32,894 nucleotides of DNA, taken from Anaerolineae bacterium. Its GTDB lineage: Bacteria > Chloroflexota > Anaerolineae > UBA4142 > SHND01. The notes under the pieces were generated by a model that was given only the letters and a program-made list of their open reading frames with translations, had not been told where the DNA came from and searched no databases. The position numbers were made by a program, and so were the translations under genes. The stretch covers positions 1-32,894 of the forward strand of contig JAJVIA010000002.1 of NCBI GenBank assembly GCA_022072245.1, read 5' to 3'. This document shows, piece by piece, positions 3,638-24,518 of the stretch (position 1 is the stretch's first letter; each line of letters starts with the position of its first letter).

Positions 3638-3674
3638 ATCCCCCATGCCATTTGGTGTGGGGGATTTTATTTTC
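3638..3674 (+). terminator. Terminator-like hairpin before the helicase gene
   Basis: ATCCCCCATGCCA (3638-3650) pairs with TGGTGTGGGGGAT (3653-3665). The pairing is complete except for two G-U wobbles and a very tight loop. It is followed by TTTTATTTT. The ribosome-binding site of the next gene (AAAAGGAGA) begins immediately after the T-run. It could be a true terminator or an attenuator controlling the helicase gene. Confidence 0.7.
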
Positions 3675-3689
3675 AAAAGGAGATTTGAT

Positions 3690-7577: not shown

Positions 7578-8744
7578 TTACTGTATTTTTACTAAACTAC
7601 TCCAAGCATCTACTAGAGATTTAACAATGATATTTATTTCATCTTCACTGTTATATCTTCCGAGACTAATTCGAATTGTGGATGAAGCATCTTCCCTAGA
7701 CAAACCCAAGGCTGTTAGAACATGCGAAGGCTCAATTGCTCCTGATGTGCAAGCTGACCCAGTCCCAATCATGATATCTGGCGCATTGTAAATCAGTGCA
7801 TCTGCATCTAAATCTTGAAACGTGATACTAGTGGTGTTAGGTAGTCGCTCAACAAGAATACCATTTATTTTAGATAAAGGAATTTTAGAAGTTATTTGAG
7901 TTTCGATTTGGTCACGTATTCTTTGTACTCGAATAACCTCTTCATTTAATGTTGCCTTTGTCAATCTGCAAGCCTCACCTAGCCCAACTATACTGGGTAC
8001 ATTTGTGGTTCCGGAGCGTAAACCACTTTCTTGTCCTCCACCATATCCAATTGGTTCCAAGGGAATTGCACCTGTCCCGCCGCGAATATAAAGTACCCCA
8101 ACTCCCTTCGGTCCATAAAACTTGTGCGCGCTTAAAGAAAGCAAGTCTACTTCCCAATCATCAACACTTACAGGAATCTTGCCTGCTGCTTGTGCCGCAT
8201 CGGAGTGAAATAAAGCGCCATGCTGATGAGCAAGTTCAGCAAGTTCTTTGATTGGCTGTAAGGTGCCGATTTCATTATTTGCCCCCTGTATTGATACAAG
8301 TAATGTGTTTTCATCAATACTTTTGCTTGCTTCTTCTAGAATAACCTTGCCATTTTTGTCGACTGGAAGAAAAATAACATCAAAACCTTCTTCTTTTAGT
8401 CTTTTACAGGGCAAAAGAACAGCTTTATGTTCTATAACGCAAGTCACGATGCGCTTACGTTGCGCATTTTGGCGGAAGCGTGCTAATCCTAGTATTGCCA
8501 AATTGTTGCTTTCCGTTGCTCCACTCGTAAACACAATTTCATTTGATCTTGCACCAATCAAATCTGCGACCTGCTCGCGCGCAATATCTACTGCTTTTGC
8601 TGATTTCCGGCCTTGAATATGGAGCCCATTAGATGGGTTGCCGTAAGTTTCATTAAAATACGGCAACATCTTTTCGACAACGCGGGAATCGCAGGGTGTA
8701 GTCGCGTTGTAATCAAGGTAAATCGGTGAGACTTTAGTGGTCAT
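7578..8744 (-). CDS. Cysteine desulfurase (IscS/NifS/DndA family)
   Basis: This encodes 388 residues of a PLP enzyme that would take sulfur from cysteine as a persulfide and pass it to a partner. The visible signatures are YLDYNATTP at the N-terminus, TSGATESNN (73-81), the PLP lysine in SAHKFYGPKG (Lys208) and the catalytic Cys332 in GTGSACTSG. The length is normal for the family. ATG 8744 overlaps the BrxL stop in an ATGA, so it is translationally coupled and the last gene of the defence operon. In Dnd systems DndA supplies sulfur to DndC, and a DndC-like gene is in the same operon, so a DNA phosphorothioation role is inferred. A housekeeping Fe-S role is possible, but no IscU, IscR or HscA neighbours are present. 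Confidence 0.93.
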   Translation of the reverse strand: MTTKVSPIYLDYNATTPCDSRVVEKMLPYFNETYGNPSNGLHIQGRKSAKAVDIAREQVADLIGARSNEIVFTSGATESNNLAILGLARFRQNAQRKRIVTCVIEHKAVLLPCKRLKEEGFDVIFLPVDKNGKVILEEASKSIDENTLLVSIQGANNEIGTLQPIKELAELAHQHGALFHSDAAQAAGKIPVSVDDWEVDLLSLSAHKFYGPKGVGVLYIRGGTGAIPLEPIGYGGGQESGLRSGTTNVPSIVGLGEACRLTKATLNEEVIRVQRIRDQIETQITSKIPLSKINGILVERLPNTTSITFQDLDADALIYNAPDIMIGTGSACTSGAIEPSHVLTALGLSREDASSTIRISLGRYNSEDEINIIVKSLVDAWSSLVKIQ

Positions 8745-10177
8745 GGCGTTATTTCATATTGAATATCTTTTTCAAATTGACGATACTCTGCATCTAACAT
8801 ATATAGTTGATCCCAGATAAACTGTCTAAGCTGCTTGGCTGGGCGAACACAGTAATGTTCAAAATCTCCATCGGACATTACCCCATGCGGGAAAAGCAAT
8901 TTTGTCATCCCACTAGCAATAGCATGAACGGCATCTTCATTTCTTTTGAACTTTTTCCCGGTTAATTGAATCCGCCGCGCGCACATTTGGTCAATTTCGA
9001 GGTTGTCACGAAACGCCAAAAGTGCATCACCGAAAAAGTCCGTTTTCAATCCAACACTTTTAGCAAAGCTATCACCACTCAGTTTACGAATTTTCCAGCC
9101 TGGGATAATACCCTTTATTCTGTCAAGGAATGCCGTTTCCTGTAAAAACACGGGCAGTTCTGAAACTAAAGGTGATGCAACGGGTTGCTGGTGTGTGTCG
9201 AGAGTAATATTAGCCAGCATAACCAATCCACAATCGCTTGACGACTCGTGCAGACCACCACGTGTTAATCGTGCATTGGCAAGGAATCCTTTTAATCCAC
9301 CTACAATTTCCTCGGGGCGTTCAAACTTTAAAGTCTGTACTTCATCCAGGACAACCACTTTAAAGCGAGCAAGGAGTCCCCATTGCCCAGAAGCATTGTT
9401 AATAAACAAGACTGCTGGCGAAACATTCCCACCGCTTAACAGCCTCACACGAGGTGAAATATTTTCATACAGATAACTTTTGCCAGTTCCTTTAGGCGCA
9501 AGTTCAATTAAATGCATACTTTTCTGAACCAAAGGCAGTAACCTGCAAAGCAAATATATTTGCTCATCTTCTGTAAACACTAAGGGGTTGTATCCCATTG
9601 ACGTTATTAAGAGAGACATCCACTCTTTTAATGAAAATTCCTGTCTGGCTTTTTTGTACAAATCTAAATTAAAGACAGCCTGCATAGGTTTGAAACTAAC
9701 AACTTCTACCCCCTCAGGAGTATTTGTTAATTCAGTCACTCCCCACATTCCATAAGAGAGCAAATCTTGATATTTTTCTACGATACCATCGGCAATTAAG
9801 GCGTCGAATATTTGTAGTTGCATTAATTTTGCGACGCGATCTTGATTGTTACGCCTTAACTCAACCTCCACCTGCATTGACGTCAAGACTTTTACGGTTT
9901 CGCCATTAAACAATCGGTTTTTGATTGAATTCGCGTCTTCAGGTCCGGGCAAATAGCGATCTGTCCAGTCTTGGATTTTATTTATTTTTTCCTTTGTAAG
10001 TTCATCGCTTCCAGGAGATAAAGTATCAATTACCCATTCAGCCACGTAAGCAGGAATGCCACGTTTGTCTAACTTAGTTAATGGTAAACGACGTTTGTCT
10101 ATGGCGAGATCTCCAAAGATCTTAACCGCTTTCGCATTTAACTCTTGCGCAGAGTCTGTAATATGATCAGTTGTCAT
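8741..10177 (-). CDS. brxL: BREX protein BrxL, short form lacking the Lon protease domain
   Basis: This encodes 478 residues with an AAA+ core: Walker A LAPKGTGKSYLYE (Lys233), followed by LLSGGNVSPAVLF and Walker B VVVLDEVQ (Asp278, Glu279). About 220 residues precede the core, as in BrxL proteins (RYLPGPEDANSIKNRL). Classical BrxL is near 680 residues and carries a C-terminal Lon-like protease domain. Here the protein ends soon after the AAA+ lid and has no Ser/Lys protease section. The gene is not obviously broken: its stop overlaps the next start in an ATGA, and its own ATG overlaps the PglZ stop in the same way. In BREX, BrxL is a DNA-binding AAA+ ring needed for phage exclusion. Confidence 0.85.
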   Translation of the reverse strand: MTTDHITDSAQELNAKAVKIFGDLAIDKRRLPLTKLDKRGIPAYVAEWVIDTLSPGSDELTKEKINKIQDWTDRYLPGPEDANSIKNRLFNGETVKVLTSMQVEVELRRNNQDRVAKLMQLQIFDALIADGIVEKYQDLLSYGMWGVTELTNTPEGVEVVSFKPMQAVFNLDLYKKARQEFSLKEWMSLLITSMGYNPLVFTEDEQIYLLCRLLPLVQKSMHLIELAPKGTGKSYLYENISPRVRLLSGGNVSPAVLFINNASGQWGLLARFKVVVLDEVQTLKFERPEEIVGGLKGFLANARLTRGGLHESSSDCGLVMLANITLDTHQQPVASPLVSELPVFLQETAFLDRIKGIIPGWKIRKLSGDSFAKSVGLKTDFFGDALLAFRDNLEIDQMCARRIQLTGKKFKRNEDAVHAIASGMTKLLFPHGVMSDGDFEHYCVRPAKQLRQFIWDQLYMLDAEYRQFEKDIQYEITP

Positions 10178-12351
10178 AAATCAAGTCCTTCAAGCAAAGA
10201 TTTATCTCTGGTATATAGTTCTGTTACCTTCAAATGAGACAAAGAGGGGCGCTGCTCAAATTCATCTCCTGAAGGCAACGCCAACACAACATACGCAGTA
10301 CCAATTTTCACCTGTTCGCTAGACGGCCAAGATGAAATATCAATTTCAATTGTTGTCTCTCTTAAAGACGGAAGTAAATGCCTTTTATCAAGCCTTGTCA
10401 TTTTATTATCGCCAAAATCAATTTCACATTGGACAATATGCAAGTTGACCTGGCTTGAATTTATGGCCGTCAATATCAATTTTCCAGGTTGGTTGGCAGC
10501 TCCATCGCCACTTATAGCTAGTTCAACTTTGGGACTTTCCACATTTCTTGCAAAAACCATCCAGGGAACGATGACCTCTTCTGGAGATAGTCCGCCATGA
10601 GGGTATAGCTCTTGTTCGTGGCGCTTATCTTGAAAAGCACTATCGTCTAGTATAACTGCAACATCAATACCAAAAGTGTCCAAACCAAAGCGATGTTGCG
10701 ATAAGTATGCAACATTCTCATTGATAACATACCCAGATTTAGGAAAGTCCTCATTAACAGTCTTGCCCCAGGCGGCACGACCGTGAGCAAGCATGCCTTC
10801 AGGTATAGGAACGACTCTTTTCGATGTCCCTAAATATCTTCCGTGATCGGTTGAAATAAATAGTTTTACATCCATAGATAGTGGAATTTGCTCAATTACA
10901 TCTAAAATCTTTTTGGCTTGCGTTCTCAGTTGACCTTCTATTTCGGTTTTTAATGTATTGTTCTTATTTTTCTTGTGATAAGTATTATCTGGCTCCTGAA
11001 TACGCCAAATGATAAGATCACCTGGTTGGGCAAGTTTTAGGTTTTTTACTGGCGTCTCTTGCTCTGAAACGTCTTCTCCAAGAATCTTTATTTCCTTCAT
11101 CATTGAAGGCTGTACGCCTCGGAGAAGAGATCCTTTGGTAAATTCGGTTACTGTAGGTATTGGAGCAAAACACGGGCTGTTTTCTACAATGTCTAATCGA
11201 TGAGTCCCTTTAGTACCAAGCAAAGCGTTCATTAAGAATTTTGCATCCAAATAATGGAGACCATCTAACACGACTAATAGATTGATCGAATTTGGGTATT
11301 TTTCGCGCAAGTTTTGTGAATAAAAATAACTTATATAAGCTTTTGAATTTAAGGCTGTAGGGTAAAAATTCAGATACCATTCAGCAAATTGCCTGCCTAA
11401 AGATAGGGAGTGGGCATATGCGGTGTTGTTGCCAGTATTAAGACACCAATCTTTGTAGGGTAGATATTCTTCCATAAACCATTCAATTACGGACTCAGGC
11501 TGTTGAGGCATTGGCTTTGGCTCTGGTATCGGTCGTAGTTTGGCGATTCTTTCAACATCTTTTCCGGTTGCAAACCTGAAAATTTTGTTACATGCATCGG
11601 CAGTAACAAACTCAGGGTTCTTTTCAAAATAATCCAATGCAACTTTAGCCGCTTCTTGTTTGAGTTCTCTTTTGGTTGGGGCTTTGAAAAACTCAATAAA
11701 AAACTCTCCCCGTGTCTTTATCATGTTGCCAGCCCACGCCTCTTGCAACTTGGCAAGCCATTTATCGGGCACTTGAGCGGGGAATTCTCCGTATTTATCT
11801 AAAAAGGGAGTTATCTCTGCCCCAAACCATTTTTGAAGCAATAACATTGATGATTCAGGGGTATTGGCCTCATATAACTCGCTCAGTTCTGGTTGGTCTT
11901 TTTTCCACTCAAAAACCAAAGGAGAGAGTACAGGCTCAAATGCTTCATGGTACTCTATCGCATCTAGCCAAAGCAGCCAATCCGCAGCATGTGACTTAGT
12001 GGCCGACGAGTCCCATAAGTAAGTATGAAACAGAGATGACAATATCTCTTGTGGAGAATAATCAGCAATCTTTACTTTTGCCGCCTTCAATTTTTGGCTT
12101 ATATACTGCGCCTGTTCAATCGACAGATCGCTATAATGGCCCATCAAATCACCAACAATAGACGGTGCGCTGGTACAAGTAATATTTCTACCCCTGTAAA
12201 AAGATTCAGCCCACTCGCATAACGCATAGCCGCGAATCAGGAGAGCATCTCCTGACAATGCAGAGTTTAGAAAGTCAACCTCTGTTTCAATAATCCTGTA
12301 TCCTTTTACAGAGTCGGCAGTTTCGTCGCGATCTAGCAATATATTCGGCAT
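10174..12351 (-). CDS. pglZ: PglZ, alkaline-phosphatase-fold BREX core protein
   Basis: This encodes 725 residues. I chose ATG 12351, 7 bases after the BrxC stop, because it gives a natural N-terminus (MPNILLDRDE); a longer start at 12444 would lie inside brxC. The C-terminal half shows the PglZ metallo-phosphatase motifs: VVLDGLHYLD (Asp363), a Thr-rich nucleophile region (PTVTEFTKGS, about 399-408), STDHGRYLG (Asp502, His503) and YPHGGLSPEEVIVPW (from residue 583). PglZ is the signature protein of all BREX systems. Its neighbours BrxC and BrxL match the BREX order. The stop overlaps brxL in an ATGA. The enzymatic target in BREX is not settled. Confidence 0.93.
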   Translation of the reverse strand: MPNILLDRDETADSVKGYRIIETEVDFLNSALSGDALLIRGYALCEWAESFYRGRNITCTSAPSIVGDLMGHYSDLSIEQAQYISQKLKAAKVKIADYSPQEILSSLFHTYLWDSSATKSHAADWLLWLDAIEYHEAFEPVLSPLVFEWKKDQPELSELYEANTPESSMLLLQKWFGAEITPFLDKYGEFPAQVPDKWLAKLQEAWAGNMIKTRGEFFIEFFKAPTKRELKQEAAKVALDYFEKNPEFVTADACNKIFRFATGKDVERIAKLRPIPEPKPMPQQPESVIEWFMEEYLPYKDWCLNTGNNTAYAHSLSLGRQFAEWYLNFYPTALNSKAYISYFYSQNLREKYPNSINLLVVLDGLHYLDAKFLMNALLGTKGTHRLDIVENSPCFAPIPTVTEFTKGSLLRGVQPSMMKEIKILGEDVSEQETPVKNLKLAQPGDLIIWRIQEPDNTYHKKNKNNTLKTEIEGQLRTQAKKILDVIEQIPLSMDVKLFISTDHGRYLGTSKRVVPIPEGMLAHGRAAWGKTVNEDFPKSGYVINENVAYLSQHRFGLDTFGIDVAVILDDSAFQDKRHEQELYPHGGLSPEEVIVPWMVFARNVESPKVELAISGDGAANQPGKLILTAINSSQVNLHIVQCEIDFGDNKMTRLDKRHLLPSLRETTIEIDISSWPSSEQVKIGTAYVVLALPSGDEFEQRPSLSHLKVTELYTRDKSLLEGLDL

Positions 12352-12358
12352 TTTCTTA

Positions 12359-15300
12359 TTAATCGACCTTTTGTAAACGTTTAATGCACTCTTCTCGTTT
12401 TTTTCGGTCTTTGATGGATTTGAATAGGTCTTCAATATGACCAATCACATCCTGAGTTTCTTTTTCTTCGATTTTAGAAGAAACCTCTTTTATTTTGGAA
12501 GCTATGCTCTTATTTGTAAAAGATATGGTTTCTAGCTTTCTACGCAGGTCTGCGGCTTTTGACGCCTTAATTCCGCGCTCCACTTCTTTGATTATTTTCT
12601 CTACTTTCTCATATTCTTCTTGAATCTTCTCGTCTATCTTATTTTTAACATCTTGGAAATAAGACTTGTGTTTTTTGCTGACTTTGCTTAAATAATTTTT
12701 TTCGATCTTACCCAATCTTTCACGCGCTTCAGACTCATCCTCTGGATTCCTGATAGGTAACAGAGTTACAGATTTTAAATCTTCAAAGTAGGACTGTAAT
12801 ACTTGAATATACTTTTTTGCTTCACGAAAATCTTTTTCGTGGTCTGAACCTGAATATCTGCCTTCTCTGATTATCATTGACTCGTAAAAGTCTCTCAGAT
12901 CTTCAGGCGAAATTTCTTTCGCAGTTTTCTCTACATTCTCTGCAAAAGTTTCCAGTCCCAAAATTTCGGTGGAAATCTCGTCTAATTTCTTTTTCTTTAC
13001 TTTTTCAAAATTACTTGACGAGCCATTAAGTTGCGCAATCGCATCTTGATATTGATATAAAACAACTAAATCCGCCTTTGACGTCATTGCATTAAGTTGT
13101 TCGACAGCCGACGATTCTGCTGCCTGGTTTCTAAGTACCTCAACTCGTCTCTCTAAATCTTCTTCTGCTTGGGCGAATAAGGCAACAATTTTCTTGTGCC
13201 CTCTACGCTCAAAGTCGCTTTTGTAATCCCGTATTTCGGAGCGTGCTATGCCAGCGTCTTCGATGTGTCTTAAATTGACACTCTCTTTACATGTTTCTTT
13301 TGCAGCTTCTTCTATTTTAGCGTCTAAGTCTTTCTGAATTTCGCTTACACCCGGTTGAGTAGGTGTAACTATATTAGCAGATACCAATCGTTTGAGATCG
13401 TTCTCAAACCCCAGTAGTTTTTTGAGACTATCTTCCCTTGAAAAGGCAGCGCGTAATTTCTTAACATCAGCGTCGTACAGTTTGGCACTCTCTAATGCCG
13501 TTGTTAAATCCTGCAATGCCTGTGTAACGGCTTCTTTTTCATCCTCAGACAAGACGCCCTGATTAAGAACCTCTTTTAGTGAAGTTACTTGGGAGTCCGC
13601 GTCTTCTTGACTTCGAGGAATAGAACGCTGGATCTCTTCAACTAACTTGCGTATCTCTTTGACGGCTTTTTCTACGTCGCGCCTAGTAATTGTAAAGTTT
13701 TGTGTGCATATCTTTCCCAAAAACTCTTGAGGATATTCGGACTCGAGCAATTTCTCAAGATAGTCTATGCCTACAATTTTATTGTTGGCAGAAAAACTGA
13801 GTTTGGTTTTGTTTTTCCCAATCCAAGCGGTAAAGAGCAGCGTTGCTGTGTTGTAATCAAAGCCAAACGGAGGCGCAAAAAGATTGGGAAGAAAAGTTTT
13901 AACAGGAACTTCCTTATCATCTATCTTGACTTCATTTTCTAAATATTCCCATGCGCGCAGCAAGGAAGGCGCATCTGGCTCTTGTATGTAATAACGGTTT
14001 GTTAAAATGCGCCAATTTTGCATTAGTTGCTGCTTACAAACTCGATCGCGGGAAAAATGAGACATTCCATCTAACGTGGAACCTATTTTGTTATGGAGTA
14101 AGTTTCTTGCGACTACCTTAACGCTGTCAGGAACCGTTTTAGCGCCTTTTTTCGGATTTGCAGCAAACTCATCAAAGAATTTTGGCGGGTGATATGGATA
14201 TGCCAAGTCGTAAAGCTTCCGTAATACACCATCTATTGTTATTGTAGCCAAGACGGTTAAGTTGGATTTGTATTTTTGATGAATAACCAACTCTGTTGAT
14301 TTTCTTGGGATACTTCTGTAATTTACTTCATCACCGAACAGGTTTCCCAGCGACTTTATAAGAGTTTTCTTGGTGCGTTCTAGGTCACTGTCAAATCCAA
14401 CCTGAGTGACTTTCTTTATTAGATCTCGATCCTTTTTTAAATCCTCAAGAACTTTGTAACGTAGATAATAATTTGACAACAGGGTATTTACTGACTTTGG
14501 AAGCACCATGATAACTGGAGGAGGTGTTTCTTCAGAAAACGTATCGTGCAGAATTTTAGGCGCAGTTTTATTGAAATATTCGATATCAGTCTCATCTAAT
14601 GCAAGCAACCAGCAAACTAAACCGCGATTGCCGTCTTTGAATCCTTGATATGTGAGTGAGTATGCTTGCAACGACTGCTTCAAAAAGTCACTGGTTAGCG
14701 TTTCCCGTGTGATAACAACTGATTTCGCTGCCCAATCATCTGGACTGCCCCAGTCTACAGGAACTGGGATTTTGGTAGTACCAGTAAACAGGTCTTCCAA
14801 ATTGTCATTAAGACTGTATACCGTGTCAGGATTAAATTTCTTGTTTGCTAATTCATTCTTGATTCGATCTTCCAGTGCCTGTGGATCCACAGAGACGGGC
14901 CAGAAAGAATTAATGCCAAGGCTCTCGTCGTATTTGGTAATGCTCTTCTTTGATAATTCTTTCAATGTTTGCAAAGCTGTTTTTTCGTCCAAGCCTGCCA
15001 TTTCAGCCAGAATTTCAACCTGCCTGCCCCCTACAACAAGGTGATCTGCTTCTTGCAATAAAAGCGCTTTTAGAAGGGCGTGATATATATAGGTTGGCGT
15101 ACCTGCAAAAGTTTGTTCAACATTTCTTGTTGCATTTTCATACGAGGCAAATAATTGCTTGGTGGCAATTCTGCCCTGGAAATAATCCACCAGTTCAATC
15201 GGGTAAATTCTGTTTAGTTTTCCATTATCGTCAAAAATAGGTTCGTTTTGTTTTTGCTCGTAACGATCTCGGACGAATCGCAAAATAGTGCGCGGATCGT

Positions 15301-16576
15301 CATCGATGGTTTGCATTTTCAAGTGACTTAGCAAGGCAGTGGTGAAGGGATGTAATGGGAAGCAACCTTTTGCAAGCACATCCCTAAATTTGTCGTTTCT
15401 CCACCGCAATTCCCGATCATATCTCTTTGAATACAGTTCCCATATTAATTCTGTCGGGCTGAAAATACTGCCACGAGCGCGCGGATTGGATGCAATCATC
15501 TTGTCCCAGGCACTATCTGATTGGGAAAGATAGGAATCCAATACAGACTCCATCAAAGAGTACAACGCGTATTTCTTTTCAATGCGATTCAATTCGCGTT
15601 TTATGGATTGAAGTGTCTGACCACCAGCATATTGATCCGCAACTTCATCTGGGTCATGCTGGGCAAATGCCAGAAACAATGCTTTCCCTCGATGATCCTG
15701 TATGCCTAGCAAAAGATTTTGCAGGTCGCCAATTGCCTTGCCTTCGCTGTATCTTTGCACAAACTGACTAAACTCATCAAACAAAACCAACACACCTGAA
15801 AGCGCTTTACTTTTTTGGCACACTTCTACAATCCACTTAACTGCATCTTTGAAGTCGAAGTTTCCTTCCGCGCTTGGGGAGACATCGTTATTCAGATATT
15901 TGAATAACTCTACATATTGTTCATATGCAGTCGAAACATTTTCTTCAACATCTGCCAGTAGACCGGGGACATCAGTGCCGTAGCTGTCCTTCAAGAATTT
16001 CTTTGCCTGCTTGTCCTCAAGTTTTCCTTCTAGCCATATCTTTGCCTGTTGATTCCAAAACGGTAATTCGATTGATTGCGTTTCTTTGTGCTCTTTCAGT
16101 GCTTTTTGAATCGCAGGAAAGAACTGTTCGCGCAAAGTTTTATGTGTGTCGCCACTTAAGCGAACCACAAGAAATCGATCGTTTTGACGCTTAAATTCAT
16201 GGTAATCTTCTGTTTTGACGGGGTTATTAACAGCCTGGTCAATTCGTTCCAGAATTTTCTTTACCTCAGGTGAACGGGCTGGCTTTCCAAAGTAATTTGC
16301 TAAAACCAAAGCCAAATGGCTTTTCCCATGCCCATAATTGGCAACAATTGCAAAGCAATTACTTGAATTGTTATTGAAGCTCAATCGAAGATTTTTCAGT
16401 AGATCGATGGAACCCACCGAGATAAGTTGACCGCCGTAAGTATCTGGAGCGCTTTCAGCAAAGATGTACGATTTGACCAGCGCGAGATTATCTTCAGGCT
16501 TGTCATAATCACTCAATTGTACGGCGCTGATGAATTTACCTTGCGTATCTATCTTGACAACATCTTTTAGTAACAT
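12359..16576 (-). CDS. brxC: BrxC/PglY-like large P-loop ATPase
   Basis: This encodes 1,405 residues; ATG 16576 follows a strong AGGAGG-type site. Walker A is YGHGKSHLAL (Lys85) and Walker B is VLVLFDEFSQF (Asp267, Glu268), separated as in BrxC/PglY ATPases. The middle is a long alpha-rich section. The last 450 residues are Lys/Glu-rich and probably coiled coil (for example KKLDEISTEILGLETFAENV). BrxC is the large STAND-like ATPase found upstream of PglZ in BREX operons, and both order and length fit. The exact subfamily (BrxC, PglY or DUF6079) is an inference from shape and context. It is preceded by the small BrxF-like gene and is probably co-translated with it. Confidence 0.85.
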   Translation of the reverse strand: MLLKDVVKIDTQGKFISAVQLSDYDKPEDNLALVKSYIFAESAPDTYGGQLISVGSIDLLKNLRLSFNNNSSNCFAIVANYGHGKSHLALVLANYFGKPARSPEVKKILERIDQAVNNPVKTEDYHEFKRQNDRFLVVRLSGDTHKTLREQFFPAIQKALKEHKETQSIELPFWNQQAKIWLEGKLEDKQAKKFLKDSYGTDVPGLLADVEENVSTAYEQYVELFKYLNNDVSPSAEGNFDFKDAVKWIVEVCQKSKALSGVLVLFDEFSQFVQRYSEGKAIGDLQNLLLGIQDHRGKALFLAFAQHDPDEVADQYAGGQTLQSIKRELNRIEKKYALYSLMESVLDSYLSQSDSAWDKMIASNPRARGSIFSPTELIWELYSKRYDRELRWRNDKFRDVLAKGCFPLHPFTTALLSHLKMQTIDDDPRTILRFVRDRYEQKQNEPIFDDNGKLNRIYPIELVDYFQGRIATKQLFASYENATRNVEQTFAGTPTYIYHALLKALLLQEADHLVVGGRQVEILAEMAGLDEKTALQTLKELSKKSITKYDESLGINSFWPVSVDPQALEDRIKNELANKKFNPDTVYSLNDNLEDLFTGTTKIPVPVDWGSPDDWAAKSVVITRETLTSDFLKQSLQAYSLTYQGFKDGNRGLVCWLLALDETDIEYFNKTAPKILHDTFSEETPPPVIMVLPKSVNTLLSNYYLRYKVLEDLKKDRDLIKKVTQVGFDSDLERTKKTLIKSLGNLFGDEVNYRSIPRKSTELVIHQKYKSNLTVLATITIDGVLRKLYDLAYPYHPPKFFDEFAANPKKGAKTVPDSVKVVARNLLHNKIGSTLDGMSHFSRDRVCKQQLMQNWRILTNRYYIQEPDAPSLLRAWEYLENEVKIDDKEVPVKTFLPNLFAPPFGFDYNTATLLFTAWIGKNKTKLSFSANNKIVGIDYLEKLLESEYPQEFLGKICTQNFTITRRDVEKAVKEIRKLVEEIQRSIPRSQEDADSQVTSLKEVLNQGVLSEDEKEAVTQALQDLTTALESAKLYDADVKKLRAAFSREDSLKKLLGFENDLKRLVSANIVTPTQPGVSEIQKDLDAKIEEAAKETCKESVNLRHIEDAGIARSEIRDYKSDFERRGHKKIVALFAQAEEDLERRVEVLRNQAAESSAVEQLNAMTSKADLVVLYQYQDAIAQLNGSSSNFEKVKKKKLDEISTEILGLETFAENVEKTAKEISPEDLRDFYESMIIREGRYSGSDHEKDFREAKKYIQVLQSYFEDLKSVTLLPIRNPEDESEARERLGKIEKNYLSKVSKKHKSYFQDVKNKIDEKIQEEYEKVEKIIKEVERGIKASKAADLRRKLETISFTNKSIASKIKEVSSKIEEKETQDVIGHIEDLFKSIKDRKKREECIKRLQKVD

Positions 16577-16594: not shown

Positions 16595-17053
16595 CTAAGA
16601 TAGGCGTCCATCTTTTTGCCATTTTTCAAGCATATCATCGCTTGGTAAAAGATGGCTGGCGGTTTCGGGAATTGTGATTAAAAAGGCATGTTGCCTGTTT
16701 GGAAAACGATTGTATAAGTCTTGCCAAACCTGATTACGATCCTGTTCTTTTCTTAATCCTGCAAGAAGCAGGTCGAAGTTGCAAATTAAAACGCAGTCGC
16801 GAATGTCGCTGCGATTTGCAGTTTCATCTAAAAACTCGTACAGGCGCGTAACGGATAGTCGCGCATATTCAGTTTTTGCAGGCAATTTTGAGAGAAATTC
16901 TTTGCTGGCGTCAAGCATCCCAAGATCAAGGCGAAAGGCGATATCCGCCTCATGCCCAATTTGGGACAAAGGCATGCGCCAAATTCCGACATTAGTACGG
17001 AAATTACCGCGTTTGAGATTTTCAACCAATTCAACAGGCTCAGTTTGACCCAT
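16595..17053 (-). CDS. BrxF/BrxB-like small BREX protein without a P-loop
   Basis: This encodes 152 residues. I chose ATG 17053, which overlaps the end of the upstream DUF4007-like gene by 14 bases; the longer frame to 17134 lies inside that gene. The sequence keeps a Walker-B-like hydrophobic strand (RDCVLICNFDLLLAGLRKEQ) and an AAA-like ending (HAFLITIPETASHLLP). No GxxxxGK[ST] motif is present, so it should not hydrolyse ATP. Small proteins of this shape occur directly before BrxC in some BREX operons (BrxF in type 3). It is probably a structural partner of the large ATPase. The family call rests on context and weak sequence resemblance. Confidence 0.6.
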   Translation of the reverse strand: MGQTEPVELVENLKRGNFRTNVGIWRMPLSQIGHEADIAFRLDLGMLDASKEFLSKLPAKTEYARLSVTRLYEFLDETANRSDIRDCVLICNFDLLLAGLRKEQDRNQVWQDLYNRFPNRQHAFLITIPETASHLLPSDDMLEKWQKDGRLS

Positions 17054-17888
17054 ATATCTTTTCCAGGATGGATTCCTGATCTTGGCGCAACAACATGACT
17101 TGATATGGTGGCGCGGATCGATGAACATCCACAAATTGATTTTCTTGCATGATTCGCAGGACTTCGTCCAAGTCAGATTTAGCCATTAAGAAAAGTTGCG
17201 GAAAACCACTATTCATTAACACATCGAGGCTGACCCCAATTCTATCGGGGTACTGTGCCTTCCAAAAATCAAGCAAGGCATATCCTACTACCCAGGCAGA
17301 GGGAGTAACTGGGGATTGTACGCGAAATCTTCCACTGTCGGTTGCTTCCAGAATTTTTAATTTTCCTAATCCTTCAGAATTAGTGTACGCATTTAAGAGT
17401 TTTGTGGCTGTGCTTTGAATTTTTCTTGCTGATATAACTTTATTTTCAGATTGCCAAATAAAATCGCCAATAAAATCAGAAACATCCTCTTTTGAGAACA
17501 AGTTGCTCGGAAAAAAGAATTTTATTACAACTTGATTCCAAAATGCAGGACCTGGACCGTGAGGTGCGCTCAAGTGATAATGCATTGCCCATTGTGTATT
17601 AGCAAGATCGAATTGCTCATCATTTCGAAATGCAAAGGTTCCAAAATTAGTAAGTTTATATTTTGGGGTAATCAGTCCACAGCCTCTTGCGTAATAAGGC
17701 ATCGCTTTTACGTAATTCGTTCCCAAGGAAGTCGCTTCTGAAAAAAACTCTCTTCGGGTTATCTGGCTTAAGGATTGAAGATTTGGATTATCCAAAACTG
17801 CTTTGACAATTTTCGACAATGATTGGCGGGAAAGTGATATGTCTTCATGAAAAATGGTCGGAATTCGAGTTTTTTGTGTGGTCGGCAT
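17040..17888 (-). CDS. DUF4007-like protein, second copy
   Basis: This encodes 282 residues; ATG 17888 has AAGG upstream. Features shared with the DUF4007 family are FHEDISLSRQSLSKIVKAVL at the N-terminus, then GCGLITPKYKLTNFGTFAF, and a TQWAMHYHLS segment. The upstream protein at 22,687-23,622 has the same layout (GHEKFVFRYGWLKKG, then SLWLLHWQLT). A winged-helix-like region before the LT-FG motif suggests DNA binding. I recall DUF4007 genes next to DndC-like genes in defence islands. This copy precedes the BrxF/BrxC pair, so it may be the adaptor for that ATPase. The function is unknown. Confidence 0.7.
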   Translation of the reverse strand: MPTTQKTRIPTIFHEDISLSRQSLSKIVKAVLDNPNLQSLSQITRREFFSEATSLGTNYVKAMPYYARGCGLITPKYKLTNFGTFAFRNDEQFDLANTQWAMHYHLSAPHGPGPAFWNQVVIKFFFPSNLFSKEDVSDFIGDFIWQSENKVISARKIQSTATKLLNAYTNSEGLGKLKILEATDSGRFRVQSPVTPSAWVVGYALLDFWKAQYPDRIGVSLDVLMNSGFPQLFLMAKSDLDEVLRIMQENQFVDVHRSAPPYQVMLLRQDQESILEKIYGSN

Positions 17889-17897
17889 TTTGACCTT

Positions 17898-18401
17898 CTA
17901 TTCAATAGGCGCAGAATTTTCAAAATTAGAAAGAGGATTTAATATCGCTATTATTAATTCTCGAAGACTCTGCCTCATCTCTTTATTTGAAAATAATTGA
18001 TAGGTAGAACTATCCAAATATGCATAATCAATATTTTCTTCAATCCTTTTGGTGCCTCCCCCCGATGTCGACAAGTTAGCATATTGAACTTCGCGCCCAC
18101 TCTTAACTTTATGTTTCCAAAAACTTGATGTCCTCAAATGAAAAAATGGTGGAGCGGGTTGATTCCAATCACCTTCAATACGAATCAAGTTAAATATATT
18201 TGAAAAACTTTTAGCGAGATCATCATTGAAGTAGATTTTATTCTCAATAATGATTTTTTTGTCAAATAAATCAAGAACTGCAAGCATCATCACCAATTTG
18301 TGCGGCTTTTTATGTCCATGAGTAACATCTCTTTGCATTTTTTGGATTTCTTTTTTAAAGTGATCCAATTTTTCCTGTAGACTCGCAGTGCCGTCGTTCA
18401 T
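17898..18401 (-). CDS. Sulfur-binding-domain (SBD)-like protein without HNH nuclease
   Basis: This encodes 167 residues with AGGAAA before ATG 18401. Two stretches resemble the phosphorothioate-binding domain of ScoMcrA-type and related HNH proteins: KPHKLVMMLAVLDL (32-45) and PPFFHLRTSSFWKHK (84-98). They have the usual spacing and a loop with basic residues between them and the C-terminus. Those nucleases carry a C-terminal HNH (Cys pair plus HH...N...H), which is absent here; the protein ends shortly after a helix. It lies between the DndC-like gene and the second DUF4007-like gene, 9 bases from each. Inferred role: recognise phosphorothioate-marked DNA and guide the modification or exclusion machinery. 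Confidence 0.6.
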   Translation of the reverse strand: MNDGTASLQEKLDHFKKEIQKMQRDVTHGHKKPHKLVMMLAVLDLFDKKIIIENKIYFNDDLAKSFSNIFNLIRIEGDWNQPAPPFFHLRTSSFWKHKVKSGREVQYANLSTSGGGTKRIEENIDYAYLDSSTYQLFSNKEMRQSLRELIIAILNPLSNFENSAPIE

Positions 18402-18410
18402 ATGTATTTC

Positions 18411-19229
18411 CTACAAATGGCATACTAAACAAGACTGATCATCACCTTCTACTTCACCTAATCCAAAAACATCACTTAAGGATTGATTTTTATTTTGGCT
18501 TTTTCTTCGCTCTTGAAAACGATCGTGATCTATCTTTATTTTTGCCACTCTTTCTGCACCTTTTAATTCTTCCAAACTTTCATTAGCGCCCCATGTATAA
18601 ACTTCGCCTGTGATTTCATCCTTTTTCTCAAACTCACCTGCCTTTTTATACAAATCAGGATGGTTTTCAAGCAACCCAACCCATTCAACCTTCTGTTGGA
18701 AAAAGCAAAAATAACATCCAGATCTGGAGCGCCAATCGTAATACTTAGGTAAACCCAAGCCACTCTCTTCTAGTAAACGGAAGATATCTTCTTTTGTTAA
18801 TCCGGCCTCTATAAATGGATATACAGCAGTAATGTTCGGTTTTGTTGATATATAACCTTTCCTATGCGCTTCGTCCGCTCGAATTCCTACGTAACTTACA
18901 CATGGATCATCGCCGACAAATCTTTCAAAAGGTTCAATTTTCAATTTCCTAGTACACCACCTTGTTCGTGCATCAGGCAAAACACCACGATATATTTGTA
19001 AGTAATGCCTAAAAGGTCTATCAGGGTTTAAGCGATTAATCGGTTTTCCCAAGAAAACTTCAAGGCGATCTAGGTATTCGTATGTTTCTGGAAGTTCTTC
19101 CCCGGTATCGCAAAAAACATACTCAACATTTGGAATTTTATCGCGCATAAAGATTGCCAAGGCAGTACTATCTTTCCCCCCTGACAAGGAAAGGATGTGG
19201 CGAATAGGTTTTTGCATTTCTGTGGTCAT
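18411..19229 (-). CDS. DndC/BrxP-like PAPS-reductase-family sulfurtransferase
   Basis: This encodes 272 residues. I chose ATG 19229 because GAGAGG lies 6 bases upstream; the GTG at 19250 has none. PP-loop motif SLSGGKDSTALAIF (14-27) binds ATP, and further family motifs are VFCDTGEELPETYEYL, RWCTRKLKIEPF (91-101) and GIRADEAHRKGY. The Cys residues in two CxxC pairs (Cys172/Cys175 in SGCYFCFF; Cys267/Cys270 at the extreme C-terminus, SCLVCHL) could bind an Fe-S cluster, as in DndC. DndC activates the DNA backbone for sulfur insertion. As I recall, a PAPS-reductase-like gene (brxP) replaces pglX in BREX type 4. Its operon partners (desulfurase, SBD-like, PglZ) support a phosphorothioation role over sulfate assimilation. 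Confidence 0.88.
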   Translation of the reverse strand: MTTEMQKPIRHILSLSGGKDSTALAIFMRDKIPNVEYVFCDTGEELPETYEYLDRLEVFLGKPINRLNPDRPFRHYLQIYRGVLPDARTRWCTRKLKIEPFERFVGDDPCVSYVGIRADEAHRKGYISTKPNITAVYPFIEAGLTKEDIFRLLEESGLGLPKYYDWRSRSGCYFCFFQQKVEWVGLLENHPDLYKKAGEFEKKDEITGEVYTWGANESLEELKGAERVAKIKIDHDRFQERRKSQNKNQSLSDVFGLGEVEGDDQSCLVCHL

Positions 19230-19275
19230 ATAAATCCTCTCAAATACCACTAAAAATCATGGGTTAATTTGTCAA

Positions 19276-19304: not shown

Positions 19305-22300
19305 CTACAATTTTGTATCTTGGTCATCCACTATTTCTTGCAGCAGCATCTGTAAAGCAACCCTCAAAACCTGTGGATCGTCAGATTTAGCCTTTTTTAG
19401 TTGATGACGAAGGTTTTCTGCAATAACACGGCTTTGTTTTCGCTGTTCATGAGACAAGCTAGCTTCTGGAGCATAACCCTTTAGCGCTGCTCGGAACGTC
19501 TTAGCGAAAACTGGTACTTTCTCAGCAAAAGTGTCTGTGTCTATGTCTGTCCAGTTTTTATACGGGCGATTGGCGATATAAGCAAGGGTGCTCTCAAGGG
19601 CAGCGCGCCCATCCTGAGTTTCAACCGCACGCTTAAGAAGTGGCAACAAATTGGAGTTTGTTACATGAGGAGCAAGTTCGCCCGCCAAAGTGCGGAACAG
19701 ATTCCAATTGTCTTCGCCGGCTCCCAATCCACAAGCATCTAACCACTTATCTCTGCCCCACTCTAAAAGCCTTGGGGTCTCGTTCGATAATTCAGTTAGT
19801 GCATTGTTCAAACGCGTAAAGAATTGATCCACCTTATCTTTATCTAACCGCTTGTCTTCAAAAGGCTCTAACTCAAGCGCTAAGGGCAAATCTGAAAATA
19901 GTAATTTTTCAGGTGACTTGGCTTGATCTACAGCAGTACGAATACCCTGTGCATGCTTGGAAATACGATTTGTTTTCCACGTATGTTCAGGTAAAGATTT
20001 CAGACCACGGATCAACATCCTGACAACAGGCATAACCGCTGCGTCGGTCTGATATCCACGTGCAAACCGCTCAATGATCGCCTGACGCGTTCCTGCAATC
20101 CTGCATCCTGCTACTGCAAAGAGTTCAGGTCTGCGCAAAAGAACTTCCCAGTCGGCAATAGATGGCTCAGGAAGCAACGATCCTTCACGATACAACGTGG
20201 TTTCATCCTGATGAATGATCACAAAAAGGCAGAGCAAAATTGGGAGAACCCCATCTGTTATTCCATATGGGGGTGCGGTTAAAAGCTGGAACAACTCTGC
20301 AACACTACGCGGCTCAAAGGTGTCACTAAACACAAAACGTGAGATTTCATTCCAAGCAGGCGCAATCGATAATACGTCGTTGTTCTTTGGAGTGACGAAT
20401 TCCCAATGTCCTTTTTTGACCTCTTTATGCAGCCCACTTGCCTTCAAGAGGCTCTCGTAAATACTTCGTTCTGGGGGGAAGCCTTCGATTCCTAGATTTA
20501 ATTCAACAGAATGCGTCATCATCTTTTCAATCAGGTTGCGCCTTGCAGCTGCTCCCTGACTGGAGAGTGCGCGCCGATTAATGATTTCATTCCAGATGAC
20601 GGGGCTCTGATCATATAGAGCATCACAGACTTTTGAAAGCAAATGTGAAAGCCCTTCATTCTTTTTAACAGAAAGGCTTTTTCCTTTATACAACCATTTA
20701 CATAAAGTTGCGTCGGTCAGTCTATGAGAACTTAGCGCGTTTTCAATCTCATTTTGAATAAGCGTTTCAACCGCACTAAAGCGGGTGCGCAGCTCTCGAC
20801 GCGCAACCGGATCACCATGCAGCTCACCAGTATTGTCTTGAACCCAGTGTAATGCACGTATCTCAGACAGCAGTTCGGTGAGCCGTCCCGATTTTTCCAA
20901 GATCCCTATCACTAAATTAGTACGGCTTGCAATTTCGGCTGAACTAGCCCATTGGACGAATTGCTCAGCCTCTACAAAATTAGCAGACAAGCATACAACC
21001 ACGATCCCGCTTGCTCCTGCCGCTGGTGATAAATTTAATTGCTTGTGTGTAAGCGCATCTACATAACGAACCTCGAAATAGCGGGTCACGCCAAAGGTGT
21101 AACTATGACGGCGTGCGACTATAGGTCGTGGTGGTAGATATTTTTGCACTGCTTCAGCAATACTAAAAGTTCCGCCTAACTGCTGGCGAGCCTCTTGTAA
21201 ACGTTCTTCAATATCCACATCACTTCCCTGCCATATTGAATACGTTTTGTTAAAGCGACGATAAACAACCAGTGAACGGGATTGCAAGCTCTTGAGTGCT
21301 TTCTGAATTTCACCTTTTGTCACATCTTGAGATTGCAAAGCGTCCAAGATGCTATCTTCACTTGCATAAAGGTGGCTTACTTCGGCGAGCCAGTTTAATA
21401 AACCAATAGTTTTCAAGACATCGGTTTCAATATGGGTAAGTTCAGGATTGATTGTGTTACTCAACCTATCCATTGTCTCGGTTATAGCGCGTGCCCTGCC
21501 TGTTGCATATAACCTACCCTGAAAATTTGCAGAGAGATAATCGAATAAGTCAGGTAAACGGACAAAAGATGATATTGAGTTTTGTGAAATGAAATCTTGA
21601 AAACCAGCAGGTTCATGCGATGCCAGATACGCAAAAATAGAACGCTCATTTTGAGCCAAACGCTTAAACAAATAAGGCAATGCAATCAGGGATGTTGGAT
21701 GAAAAGGAAATGATTGAATCGCAAGGTTGGTAAGTTCCTCGGCTTTCAACATAGGAGGACACCAACCATTACCGGCTATGTTTCCCGCAATTTCCTTCAA
21801 GGAAGATAGAGTTCCCTTAATGCTTTTTTCGTCCAAATATTCGATTGCCTTTGCCAGCAATCGTAGTTGTTGGGTGGGAGGCTCCTGAAAAGCAATGTCC
21901 TCAAATCTGCCTTGAACTTTAGCCCATTCTCGCTGAGTTTTGCTATCTAAATGAATTGCATAACGCTCAAACGCTTGGTGCAAAATACCAATGAACACAA
22001 ACGGTGCTTCTCCGCTGCGGTTTGCAAATTCAGCCAGTTCCTGCAACAAATAAATATCTGTTACTTCAGGATGGGAAGCTGCATATTCCAATGGCTTTCC
22101 CATTTCATCAAAGACCATTAATGCGCCCAAATAGCCTTGTTCGTGCAAAACCTCAGTCAATTTCTTGAGCCATTGAGTAATAACACGGCTTTCAATTGAA
22201 GCATTCCAATGATCTAACTCATGCAATAAATGCTTGATGTTTGTATTACTATGAAATTTGGCAAGGGACTGGCGCAAACCATGCTTAATACAATCCTGCA

Positions 22301-22700
22301 AAGATGCCCGAAACCCTGTGACTGGAATAGGCAGTAACCCTAGCGTGCTCCCATGATTTAAGACATGTTTGACTTGATTTGCCAAAATTTCATCAACAGA
22401 TTTCAACTGTCTTAGAACATTTTTATGGCCAGGTTGCGCAGTTCCCATAAGGTTCATAAGGAATAAACCATAATAAGATTTTCCAGAGCCATAAGGTCCA
22501 GTCAATGTCCAGGATCTTGCAGGGGAATTTCCCTCAAAACGAACCAGCATTCTTTCCAGACTTGACCGGGATTGACCTGTGAATACATATTCATTCAAAA
22601 GAGAATTATTTTGAAGATCTGCTTCTACATTTATGGAACGAACACCACTTTGACGAATGCGAATGACCTTCGCTAAAGTATCTTGATTATTTTTGCTCAT
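19305..22700 (-). CDS. Large P-loop ATPase of the defence operon (BrxC/DUF499-like)
   Basis: This encodes 1,131 residues. Walker A is LTGPYGSGKSYYGLF (Lys74) and Walker B is LGALMVFDEMGK (Asp198, Glu199). The spacing and the following segment (EAPFVFIGILHQAFERYA) are like those of the BrxC protein downstream. The rest is alpha-rich, with winged-helix-like stretches around 420-500. The C-terminal 60 residues are charged and helical. It overlaps the upstream DUF4007 gene by 14 bases, so the two are probably made together. It is not a helicase: no DEAD or SNF2 motifs are seen. Inferred role: a second nucleotide-driven scaffold or motor serving the modification arm. It could equally be called PglY-like. 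Confidence 0.8.
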   Translation of the reverse strand: MSKNNQDTLAKVIRIRQSGVRSINVEADLQNNSLLNEYVFTGQSRSSLERMLVRFEGNSPARSWTLTGPYGSGKSYYGLFLMNLMGTAQPGHKNVLRQLKSVDEILANQVKHVLNHGSTLGLLPIPVTGFRASLQDCIKHGLRQSLAKFHSNTNIKHLLHELDHWNASIESRVITQWLKKLTEVLHEQGYLGALMVFDEMGKPLEYAASHPEVTDIYLLQELAEFANRSGEAPFVFIGILHQAFERYAIHLDSKTQREWAKVQGRFEDIAFQEPPTQQLRLLAKAIEYLDEKSIKGTLSSLKEIAGNIAGNGWCPPMLKAEELTNLAIQSFPFHPTSLIALPYLFKRLAQNERSIFAYLASHEPAGFQDFISQNSISSFVRLPDLFDYLSANFQGRLYATGRARAITETMDRLSNTINPELTHIETDVLKTIGLLNWLAEVSHLYASEDSILDALQSQDVTKGEIQKALKSLQSRSLVVYRRFNKTYSIWQGSDVDIEERLQEARQQLGGTFSIAEAVQKYLPPRPIVARRHSYTFGVTRYFEVRYVDALTHKQLNLSPAAGASGIVVVCLSANFVEAEQFVQWASSAEIASRTNLVIGILEKSGRLTELLSEIRALHWVQDNTGELHGDPVARRELRTRFSAVETLIQNEIENALSSHRLTDATLCKWLYKGKSLSVKKNEGLSHLLSKVCDALYDQSPVIWNEIINRRALSSQGAAARRNLIEKMMTHSVELNLGIEGFPPERSIYESLLKASGLHKEVKKGHWEFVTPKNNDVLSIAPAWNEISRFVFSDTFEPRSVAELFQLLTAPPYGITDGVLPILLCLFVIIHQDETTLYREGSLLPEPSIADWEVLLRRPELFAVAGCRIAGTRQAIIERFARGYQTDAAVMPVVRMLIRGLKSLPEHTWKTNRISKHAQGIRTAVDQAKSPEKLLFSDLPLALELEPFEDKRLDKDKVDQFFTRLNNALTELSNETPRLLEWGRDKWLDACGLGAGEDNWNLFRTLAGELAPHVTNSNLLPLLKRAVETQDGRAALESTLAYIANRPYKNWTDIDTDTFAEKVPVFAKTFRAALKGYAPEASLSHEQRKQSRVIAENLRHQLKKAKSDDPQVLRVALQMLLQEIVDDQDTKL

Positions 22701-23622
22701 AGTGACCCCTTAGCATTTCCAGTGCATAAGCATCAAAATCATCTGCCACAGAACTTTGAAGATAGACTTGTCTTAATCCAGCCGTTTCTTGCAGAGTAAT
22801 CTTCCCGTTTGTTATTTTATGCATTTGTTCTAAATATTCAACAACGCTATTTTCGTCAAGTTTAAATACTTGTCCAGGGCTTCCATGACGATATACACAT
22901 TCGTCAACAGATACAGTCCTTCTCGAATTAATAACCGAAGGTAAATACTTTAACAAGGTGTAACCAAAGACACCTACAGGTAAAGATGGCTTGGGTCCGA
23001 TATTAAAGCGATAGACATTGTCGTCTACTACAAAACGCAGGATGTCAAGTTCTGCTAAAGGGCAATCTAGGCTTTCTTCTGAAATGGAACCTGGTCTATT
23101 ACGAACAGAAGGAATGTACGTTCGTAAACAGCAGTCAACCTCCCGTTCGATACTTCCATCTGTGGTTTTGACGCCGGCTTGATCAATATGTTTTTTTAAG
23201 AAAAATTGAATTTGTTTTTTGTCAAACTCAGCTTCAAGGTATGAAGAAAAAATTAAATTCCAAATGTAACCTCGAACGATGTTGTTAGTAAGCTGCCAAT
23301 GCAAAAGCCATAAAGACCCAATATCCTCAAAATATGGATCCCAACTGCTCCTTGTTCCGATAAGTTTCCTAGCCAGTTCGGTAGCTTTTAGTGGCTTTGC
23401 AAGAGAAACCCCTTTGGTCTCTTCGGCCATTCCAGTTGCCAAACACCAATGGCGGATGGAACGAACCATATTCTTGCCAACCCCAAGAGTTGCCAAGGAT
23501 TCTTCGTCAGTGAAAACCAGTGGGTTATCTTTGATAGCATCTATTCCTTTTTTTAACCACCCATACCGAAAAACAAACTTTTCATGCCCTCCAAACATGG
23601 GTTTGATATTGCTTGTTCCCAC
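22687..23622 (-). CDS. DUF4007 family protein, first gene of the defence operon
   Basis: This encodes 311 residues. I chose GTG 23622 because AAGGAG lies exactly 6 bases upstream; ATG 23643 has no ribosome-binding site and its first codons contain that very site. Family features are MFGGHEKFVFRYGWLKKGID at the N-terminus, ATLGVGKNMVRSIRHWC, an ELARKLIGT segment and SLWLLHWQLT. It carries a probable winged-helix region. DUF4007 genes accompany DndC-type sulfur-modification genes in other defence islands (recalled). It overlaps the ATPase gene by 14 bases. No confident promoter is seen upstream; the structured 320-base spacer lies there. Confidence 0.85.
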   Translation of the reverse strand: MGTSNIKPMFGGHEKFVFRYGWLKKGIDAIKDNPLVFTDEESLATLGVGKNMVRSIRHWCLATGMAEETKGVSLAKPLKATELARKLIGTRSSWDPYFEDIGSLWLLHWQLTNNIVRGYIWNLIFSSYLEAEFDKKQIQFFLKKHIDQAGVKTTDGSIEREVDCCLRTYIPSVRNRPGSISEESLDCPLAELDILRFVVDDNVYRFNIGPKPSLPVGVFGYTLLKYLPSVINSRRTVSVDECVYRHGSPGQVFKLDENSVVEYLEQMHKITNGKITLQETAGLRQVYLQSSVADDFDAYALEMLRGHYEQK

Positions 23623-23643
23623 AATTTTCTCCTTGAAAATCAT

Positions 23644-23964: not shown

Positions 23965-24471
23965 CTACTGTTTTGTTTTTTTTGTCTGTTTGTTCGCTTT
24001 TACTCGTTCTGAAATCAGATGGCTTTGTTTTTTGTAAGCAAAGAGAAATATAAAGAAAAGAATCCCCATGATTAGATATTCATCCCAGATTGCAACAAAG
24101 TGAATGCTTGCTTCGATAAGCTTATACAACTTCATTAAAAGCAACACCAAGAACAAGGTGAATAAAGTTCGGTACATATTGTTGGCTTCCAAAATTTGCT
24201 CAATTTTCGGATCGATTTTTGAAGCAGAAACAAAGTCTTTATAATCAGCGAATACTACGAACTTCAACCTTCGCAGGAATGGCTCCAAAATTAATGAACC
24301 TATTCTGCTAATGACCAAACCAATGAAATAATAGAGAAATAAGCCAAAAACAATATCCGCTTGATACAGGTCAAGATTTATGAACTTATCCGCCAGAAAG
24401 ACGAAAAGCACCCCTGGCAATAGATAATTGAATAAATGATAAGAAGCCAGTTTTTCAAGAAATTCCTTCAT
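23965..24471 (-). CDS. Four-TM membrane protein of the ubiquitin-like module
   Basis: This encodes 168 residues; ATG 24471 follows GAGGAT. Four hydrophobic segments are visible, at about 13-29 (LFNYLLPGVLFVFLADK), 38-62, 101-119 (LFTLFLVLLLMKLYKL) and 128-146. A cytoplasmic-looking loop lies between the second and third, and the tail is very basic (KANKQTKKTKQ). It is the last gene after the MBL and E2-E1-JAB genes, 47 bases downstream. Membrane proteins at this position in defence operons often act as effectors that damage the inner membrane, or as anchors. Neither role can be shown from sequence. Confidence 0.75.
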   Translation of the reverse strand: MKEFLEKLASYHLFNYLLPGVLFVFLADKFINLDLYQADIVFGLFLYYFIGLVISRIGSLILEPFLRRLKFVVFADYKDFVSASKIDPKIEQILEANNMYRTLFTLFLVLLLMKLYKLIEASIHFVAIWDEYLIMGILFFIFLFAYKKQSHLISERVKANKQTKKTKQ

Positions 24472-24518
24472 GATTTATCCTCAGATCAAGATGTAAATTC
24501 ATATTTACTGGGTTACCC

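Follow-up and report, generated by a model that had tools for sequence, protein, structure and literature searches.

A stand-alone sulfur-binding domain protein without nuclease in a hybrid SspABCD/type-4-BREX-like cassette of an Anaerolineae bacterium: a predicted reader of phosphorothioate marks

Known phosphorothioate systems and organization of the cassette

ScoMcrA and SprMcrA are phosphorothioate (PT)-dependent nucleases that carry a sulfur-binding domain (SBD) and an HNH domain on one protein, and in published SBDs an HNH domain follows almost exclusively (PMC7470945). PT can also be sensed by the partner of a PT writer. In the SspABCD-SspE system, the writer is coupled to a PT-sensing restriction part, SspE, whose GTPase domain itself provides the sensing cavity, with no SBD taking part. 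SspFGH, which accompanies the same SspBCD writer, attacks non-PT DNA and is toxic in cells without PT, PT being protective; further elements may be involved in its discrimination of PT (PMC8092258). Moreover, 83.9% of sspBCD loci are without both known restriction partners (PMC8092258). Type-4 BREX comprises BrxP, BrxC, PglZ and BrxL (PMC12839542), where BrxP is usually, but not universally, a fusion of PAPS reductase and DUF4007. The main text of the 2026 BREX survey mentions an SBD-type domain solely as an HNH-linked auxiliary effector and does not use the term SBD (PMC12839542). In the literature examined, which included the main text of this survey, no report was found of an SBD as part of type-4 BREX or SspFGH.

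We analysed a 32,894-nucleotide stretch of DNA from an Anaerolineae bacterium (contig JAJVIA010000002.1), hereafter the window. It carries a cassette with the gene order SspB-SspC-SspD-SBD-DUF4007-(152-aa, possibly BrxB-like)-BrxC-like-PglZ-BrxL-SspA (Table 1). The SspA, SspB, SspC and SspD genes constitute a full PT modification set. A PT writer is indeed adjacent to the SBD gene, as stated in the initial annotation, but it is not the DndC-like protein named there: DndC models match the gene at about 1e-5, against 8.6e-116 for the SspD model. PglZ and BrxL occur together with a PAPS reductase, a combination expected of type-4 BREX, and the likeness to this system extends to the BrxC-like ATPase, DUF4007 and the cysteine desulfurase. 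The window differs in several respects: BrxP is absent from it, SspD (18411-19250) and the DUF4007 proteins (SspB and the second DUF4007) being separate ORFs, the SspBCD set is full and an SBD is added. SspF, SspG and SspH are likewise absent beside SspBCD, and the BREX-like module DUF4007-152 aa-BrxC-like-PglZ-BrxL stands in their place. The cassette is a hybrid of an SspABCD PT writer and type-4 BREX parts; the BREX setting assumed initially is thus found in a BREX-like form and not as an ordinary BREX system. The 152-aa protein had no Pfam or PADLOC match, and PADLOC gave none for the BrxC-like ATPase.

Other genes of the window also resemble defence components. Three genes form a group (23965-27879, minus) that separates SspB from a conserved gene of 370 aa; a metallo-beta-lactamase-like protein is encoded at 26770-27879 (minus), an E2-E1(ThiF)-JAB fusion at 24519-26813 (minus) and a match to the phage-defence candidate PDC-M48A (1.3e-59) at 23965-24471 (minus). 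Since the genes flanking this group adjoin in the related locus L032, it appears to be an additional defence unit that was acquired by insertion into the island. Furthermore, a DUF6094 methyltransferase-helicase fusion of 1121 aa (3645-7010, plus) weakly matches the models of MADS and Dpd.

Table 1. Cassette genes and SBD residues, with their positions in the window
Feature	Position	Strand	Basis
SspB (DUF4007; DNA-binding nickase family)	22687..23643	minus	PF13182 6.7e-82; SspB 1.9e-85
SspC (AAA+ ATPase)	19305..22700	minus	PADLOC SspC E=0, 1067 bits
SspD (PAPS-reductase-like PT sulfurtransferase)	18411..19250	minus	PADLOC SspD 8.6e-116; Pfam PAPS_reduct 1.7e-14
SBD, 167 aa, no HNH; predicted stand-alone PT-DNA reader	17898..18401	minus	PDB match; AlphaFold2 model; N-terminal part of NF045808; dN/dS
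H34-K35, corresponding to H116-R117 of ScoMcrA (wall of the sulfur cavity; salt bridge)	18297..18302	minus	Invariant in 16 SBDs; roles from Liu 2018, PMC6224610
P84-P85; P85 equals ScoMcrA P165 (sulfur cavity floor), P84 the variable lid position Y164	18147..18152	minus	P85 invariant in 16 SBDs; roles from PMC6224610
H88, corresponding to A168 of ScoMcrA (wall of the cavity; SBDHga likewise has H)	18138..18140	minus	Alignment
Glycine-rich loop T112-SGGGT-K118, near the position of the Sco/SprMcrA DNA base-contact loop	18048..18068	minus	Alignments
Second DUF4007 / SspB-like protein (BrxA-like DNA-binding family); SBD-fused in G654	17040..17888	minus	PF13182 1.2e-16; fusion in L147
152-aa protein, candidate BrxB-like (inactive STAND) subunit from its position	16595..17053	minus	Conserved in cassette
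BrxC-like large ATPase (Walker A ANYGHGKS)	12359..16576	minus	Kept in complete cassettes; weak SspC match
PglZ (true start probably internal, giving about 725 aa)	10174..12444	minus	PADLOC PglZ 1e-89
BrxL	8741..10177	minus	PF13337 1.2e-91; PADLOC BrxL 4e-212
SspA/DndA-type cysteine desulfurase	7578..8744	minus	PADLOC DndA 2.6e-151, SspA 6.9e-150

Fold and sulfur pocket of the SBD protein

ORF analysis shows an intact frame with an ATG start, separated by 9 bp from the SspD stop and, at its own stop, by another 9 bp from the next gene. Both motifs initially ascribed to a ScoMcrA-type SBD are present, as K32-P33-H34-K35...L43-D44-L45 and P84-P85-F86-F87-H88-L89-R90...F94-W95. Indeed, residues 15-147 match SBDHga1 (8h0l) far above chance (phmmer against PDB sequences, E=9.4e-28; E=9e-35 with a five-sequence profile of the SBD). 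Pfam and PADLOC returned nothing significant for the 167-aa ORF. The NCBIfam model of PT-dependent restriction nucleases, NF045808, matches it at E=7.5e-6 over profile positions 3-133 of 284, covering the N-terminal SBD part alone and leaving the nuclease part unmatched. An HNH domain is absent from the ORF and from both of its neighbours, SspD upstream and DUF4007 downstream.

An AlphaFold2 model was built on an alignment of 16 sequences, in which the window protein was joined by two close relatives and by 13 viral-contig SBDs. With a mean pLDDT of 76.6 and a pTM of 0.76 the model is usable, its poor regions being loop 113-115 and the C-terminus. The best seven PDB matches are all SBD structures (Z 10.3-14.6), 8h0l scoring 14.6 and the SBDs of SprMcrA and ScoMcrA 10.3-10.8, so that the structural comparison returned the SBD fold and not an unrelated one. 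The first non-SBD match, an ORC/Cdc6 protein, reaches Z 7.7, which agrees with the SBD being a winged-helix domain, as described by Rakesh et al. (PMC10853773). Collectively, these data confirm that the ORF encodes a stand-alone SBD without nuclease. It has the fold, the H/K/P sulfur pocket and the one-domain length in common with ScoMcrA, SprMcrA and SBDHga (5zmo, 7cc9 and 8h0l), SBDHga being the nearest in sequence; unlike the two nucleases, it lies within a PT-writing cassette.

In ScoMcrA, the sulfur is contacted by H116, R117, Y164, P165 and A168, of which H116, R117 and P165 have been probed by mutagenesis; binding is lost or severely impaired when R117 or P165 is mutated, although the effect of P165N was considered by its authors as possibly due to misfolding; at position 117 K is equal to R, and Y164 is non-conserved (PMC6224610). 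These five residues align with H34, K35, P84, P85 and H88 of the window SBD, and the sole invariant columns of the 16-sequence alignment are P33, H34, K35, P85, F94 and W95. Since the pocket residues H34, K35 and P85 are kept, the protein is predicted from its sequence to be very likely to bind PT. The TSGGG stretch of the glycine-rich loop T112-K118 is identical in all four stand-alone SBDs of such cassettes and in a DUF4007-fused relative (G654); judging by its position, this loop could be the counterpart of the base-contact loop of Sco/SprMcrA.

Distribution of the SBD and mosaic structure of related cassettes

A stand-alone SBD is present in four cassettes, including that of the window, with 47–82% identity. 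The other three (L032, L031 and that of the distant genome G241) have the same gene order with the SBD in the same place, and their SBDs share 78%, 82% and about 50% (47-50%) identity with the window protein, the L031 cassette being partial. The nearest complete cassette belongs to an Anaerolineales MAG. Most compared loci come from draft assemblies, and a search of the genomes for such loci, based on an alignment of two rows, gave two close loci only. The dN/dS of the SBD, 0.05-0.11, is near that of the DUF4007 gene and indicates purifying selection. A functionless remnant of a decayed SBD-HNH nuclease could be imagined, given that most SBDs are HNH-fused, but the intact frame without HNH remnant, the low dN/dS, the identity kept in a distant lineage and a tree position outside the HNH group leave this origin hardly credible; loss of the nuclease by decay was rejected on selection and tree placement.

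The SBD is missing from two complete cassettes of the same order (G303 and G400) and from a partial one (G296), and a more distant version of the cassette in G379, G462, G301 and G352 is also without it. A sensitive profile search of every ORF of at least 40 aa found no hidden SBD in the SBD-less cassettes, so that its concealment in another ORF was ruled out. Because cassettes of identical gene order lack it, the SBD is an optional part.

Comparison of gene origins within these cassettes revealed two recombination events. In G241, all cassette genes have a GC content of 0.61-0.69, except SspD (0.42) and the SBD (0.36); GC drops inside SspD and rises inside the first part of DUF4007. The SBD cassettes of this type nevertheless form one clade in the SspD tree (97/86, or 96/85 with G654), whereas in the SspC tree G241 joins the SBD-less G400 and G296 (97/94). 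In L031, the SspC, SspD and SBD proteins are 78-91% identical to those of the window and 85-99% to those of L032, whereas for the two gene products beyond the SBD identity falls to 39% and 33% with the window but reaches 59% and 55% with G303. At L026:9600-11000, inside a defence cassette, GC falls sharply from 0.72 to 0.37 and returns to about 0.70; the breakpoints lie within SspD and within the DUF4007 gene, and the tract is clearly mosaic. An SspD signature, LPDA in the five SBD-containing cassettes of BREX type where all other rows have LPS, was set aside, as it may mark only one clade.

SspD and the SBD thus travel together, since both events kept them paired while the neighbouring genes differ in origin. 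This co-travel may reflect a functional pairing of writer and reader, or linkage alone, and a role on the writer side therefore also has to be considered: bound to existing PT sites, the SBD would guide or limit SspB, SspC and SspD, for instance to sustain a hemi-modified pattern or to keep PT density as low as is typical of these systems. Its constant place directly 3' of SspD, the AT-rich tract of G241, the single SspD clade and the foreign genes after the SBD in L031 are all in line with such a role. On the other hand, plain linkage could explain the co-transfer, the G241 tract also takes in the start of DUF4007, SspBCD cassettes without any SBD are common, and the fusions described below involve DUF4007 and SspF but never SspD. 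We regard a writer-side role as the main rival of the restriction-side reading given below, but as rather unlikely.

Fused relatives and the predicted role of the SBD

SBDs were surveyed in 396 genomes of the window's class. In G654 (L147), a single ORF of 461 aa directly after SspD joins the SBD to the DUF4007 protein of its BREX-like cassette; this fusion, seen in one draft genome, could in principle be an artefact of a lost stop codon. Three relatives connect the SBD with SspF. In G578, an SBD-SspF fusion of 748 aa (SspF model 1.3e-31 at residues 184-491) directly follows SspD and is itself followed by SspG and, in the SspH position, by the beginning of a third gene. In G048, the SBD is the N-terminus of a 1510-aa SBD-NERD-kinase-kinase-SspF protein, again directly after SspD, with SspG- and SspH-like genes downstream. 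G611 has the order of G048, but its frame is interrupted after the SBD. No second SBD-DUF4007 or SBD-SspF fusion was found in the families of G654, G241 and G578, and no SBD-SspD fusion was seen.

All eight Ssp-linked SBDs that group with SBDHga lie directly 3' of SspD. Together with SBDHga they are split from the HNH-linked SBDs with 100/100 support in a tree whose bootstrap is not fully settled and which contains some long branches. Neither viral contigs nor phage records gave a close relative of this Ssp-linked type. The plasmid matches to the SBD are annotated HNH enzymes except for one 'hypothetical protein', which was ruled out as a stand-alone SBD by its 984 bp CDS.

SBDs were also found in other contexts. 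At L080:5727-10368 (G234), the genes after SspBCD encode an SspE-like GmrSD protein, a GHKL ATPase and a stand-alone SBD-like protein of 164 aa, the last belonging to a different SBD branch. The SBD is N-terminal in a 1612-aa protein that matches RNA polymerase alpha-CTD and sigma-70 region 4 (L028:5920-10758, G186) and in a 1011-aa protein with an EVE domain (L029:6763-9798, G207); Pfam gave no HNH match for either. Seven genomes (G130, G138, G173, G332, G352, G372 and G462) contain SspD as well as an SBD protein, the latter mostly SBD-HNH and on another contig; lineage effects are possible. One might have anticipated that an SBD-HNH nuclease would attack DNA carrying PT in genomes with SspD.

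The fusions to DUF4007 and SspF suggest a reader acting together with the restriction side, and we infer such a role for the stand-alone protein. With moderate confidence, the SBD is predicted to read PT and to signal self-marking to the BREX-like restriction module, via DUF4007, so that marked DNA is spared. SspA would supply sulfur, which SspB, SspC and SspD would put on one DNA strand at host sites. The cavity formed by H34, K35 and P85 would then grip the Rp sulfur of these PT sites, and the SBD would hand a 'self' signal to the downstream module, most likely via the adjacent DUF4007 DNA-binding protein. The PglZ/BrxL/BrxC effectors would leave DNA that bears the mark and turn against phage DNA that lacks it. 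On this view, the SBD is an upgrade carried by some cassettes and missing from others.

As for the sign of this signal, the SBD-SspF fusions, together with the attack of SspFGH on unmarked DNA and its toxicity in cells without PT, favour PT as a brake by analogy with SspFGH over an SspE-like activation. A sensor in which PT binding switches on or recruits the effector would have precedents, as SspE activity needs PT (PMC9646914, PMC11662687) and the SBDs of type IV nucleases recruit their effector to PT-DNA. However, the SspF fusions sit in loci resembling SspFGH, where PT protects (PMC8092258), and activation by PT appears improbable. A third function would be that of a shield, the nuclease-free SBD covering host PT sites against SBD-HNH type IV nucleases of other elements. 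SBD-HNH proteins occur frequently in this phylum, and viral contigs encode SBD-bearing proteins too, but shielding accounts neither for the DUF4007, SspF and NERD-kinase fusions nor for the fixed place after SspD, and is very improbable.

The restriction-side reading is thus preferred, but several observations count against it: the SBD is optional, co-transfer of SspD and SBD also fits a writer-side partner, and the SBD-DUF4007 fusion occurs in one genome. The self-recognition subunit for BREX proposed initially keeps its basis in a nuclease-free SBD beside a PT writer with homologues fused to DUF4007 and SspF; being optional, however, the SBD is not the sole means of telling marked from unmarked DNA. 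More broadly, the SBD after SspD occurs alone, DUF4007-fused, SspF-fused and NERD-kinase-SspF-fused. We see about even chances that it is a transferable self-recognition cartridge, common to type-4-BREX-like and SspFGH-like modules, in which a PT sensor spares marked DNA.

Few sites are marked in SspFGH and type-4-BREX systems. An SBD that follows SspD and is fused to attack-side proteins represents a concrete candidate for the sensor by which they would recognise PT as self. If this is true, the SBD, known from nucleases that cut marked DNA, would become a protector of marked DNA.
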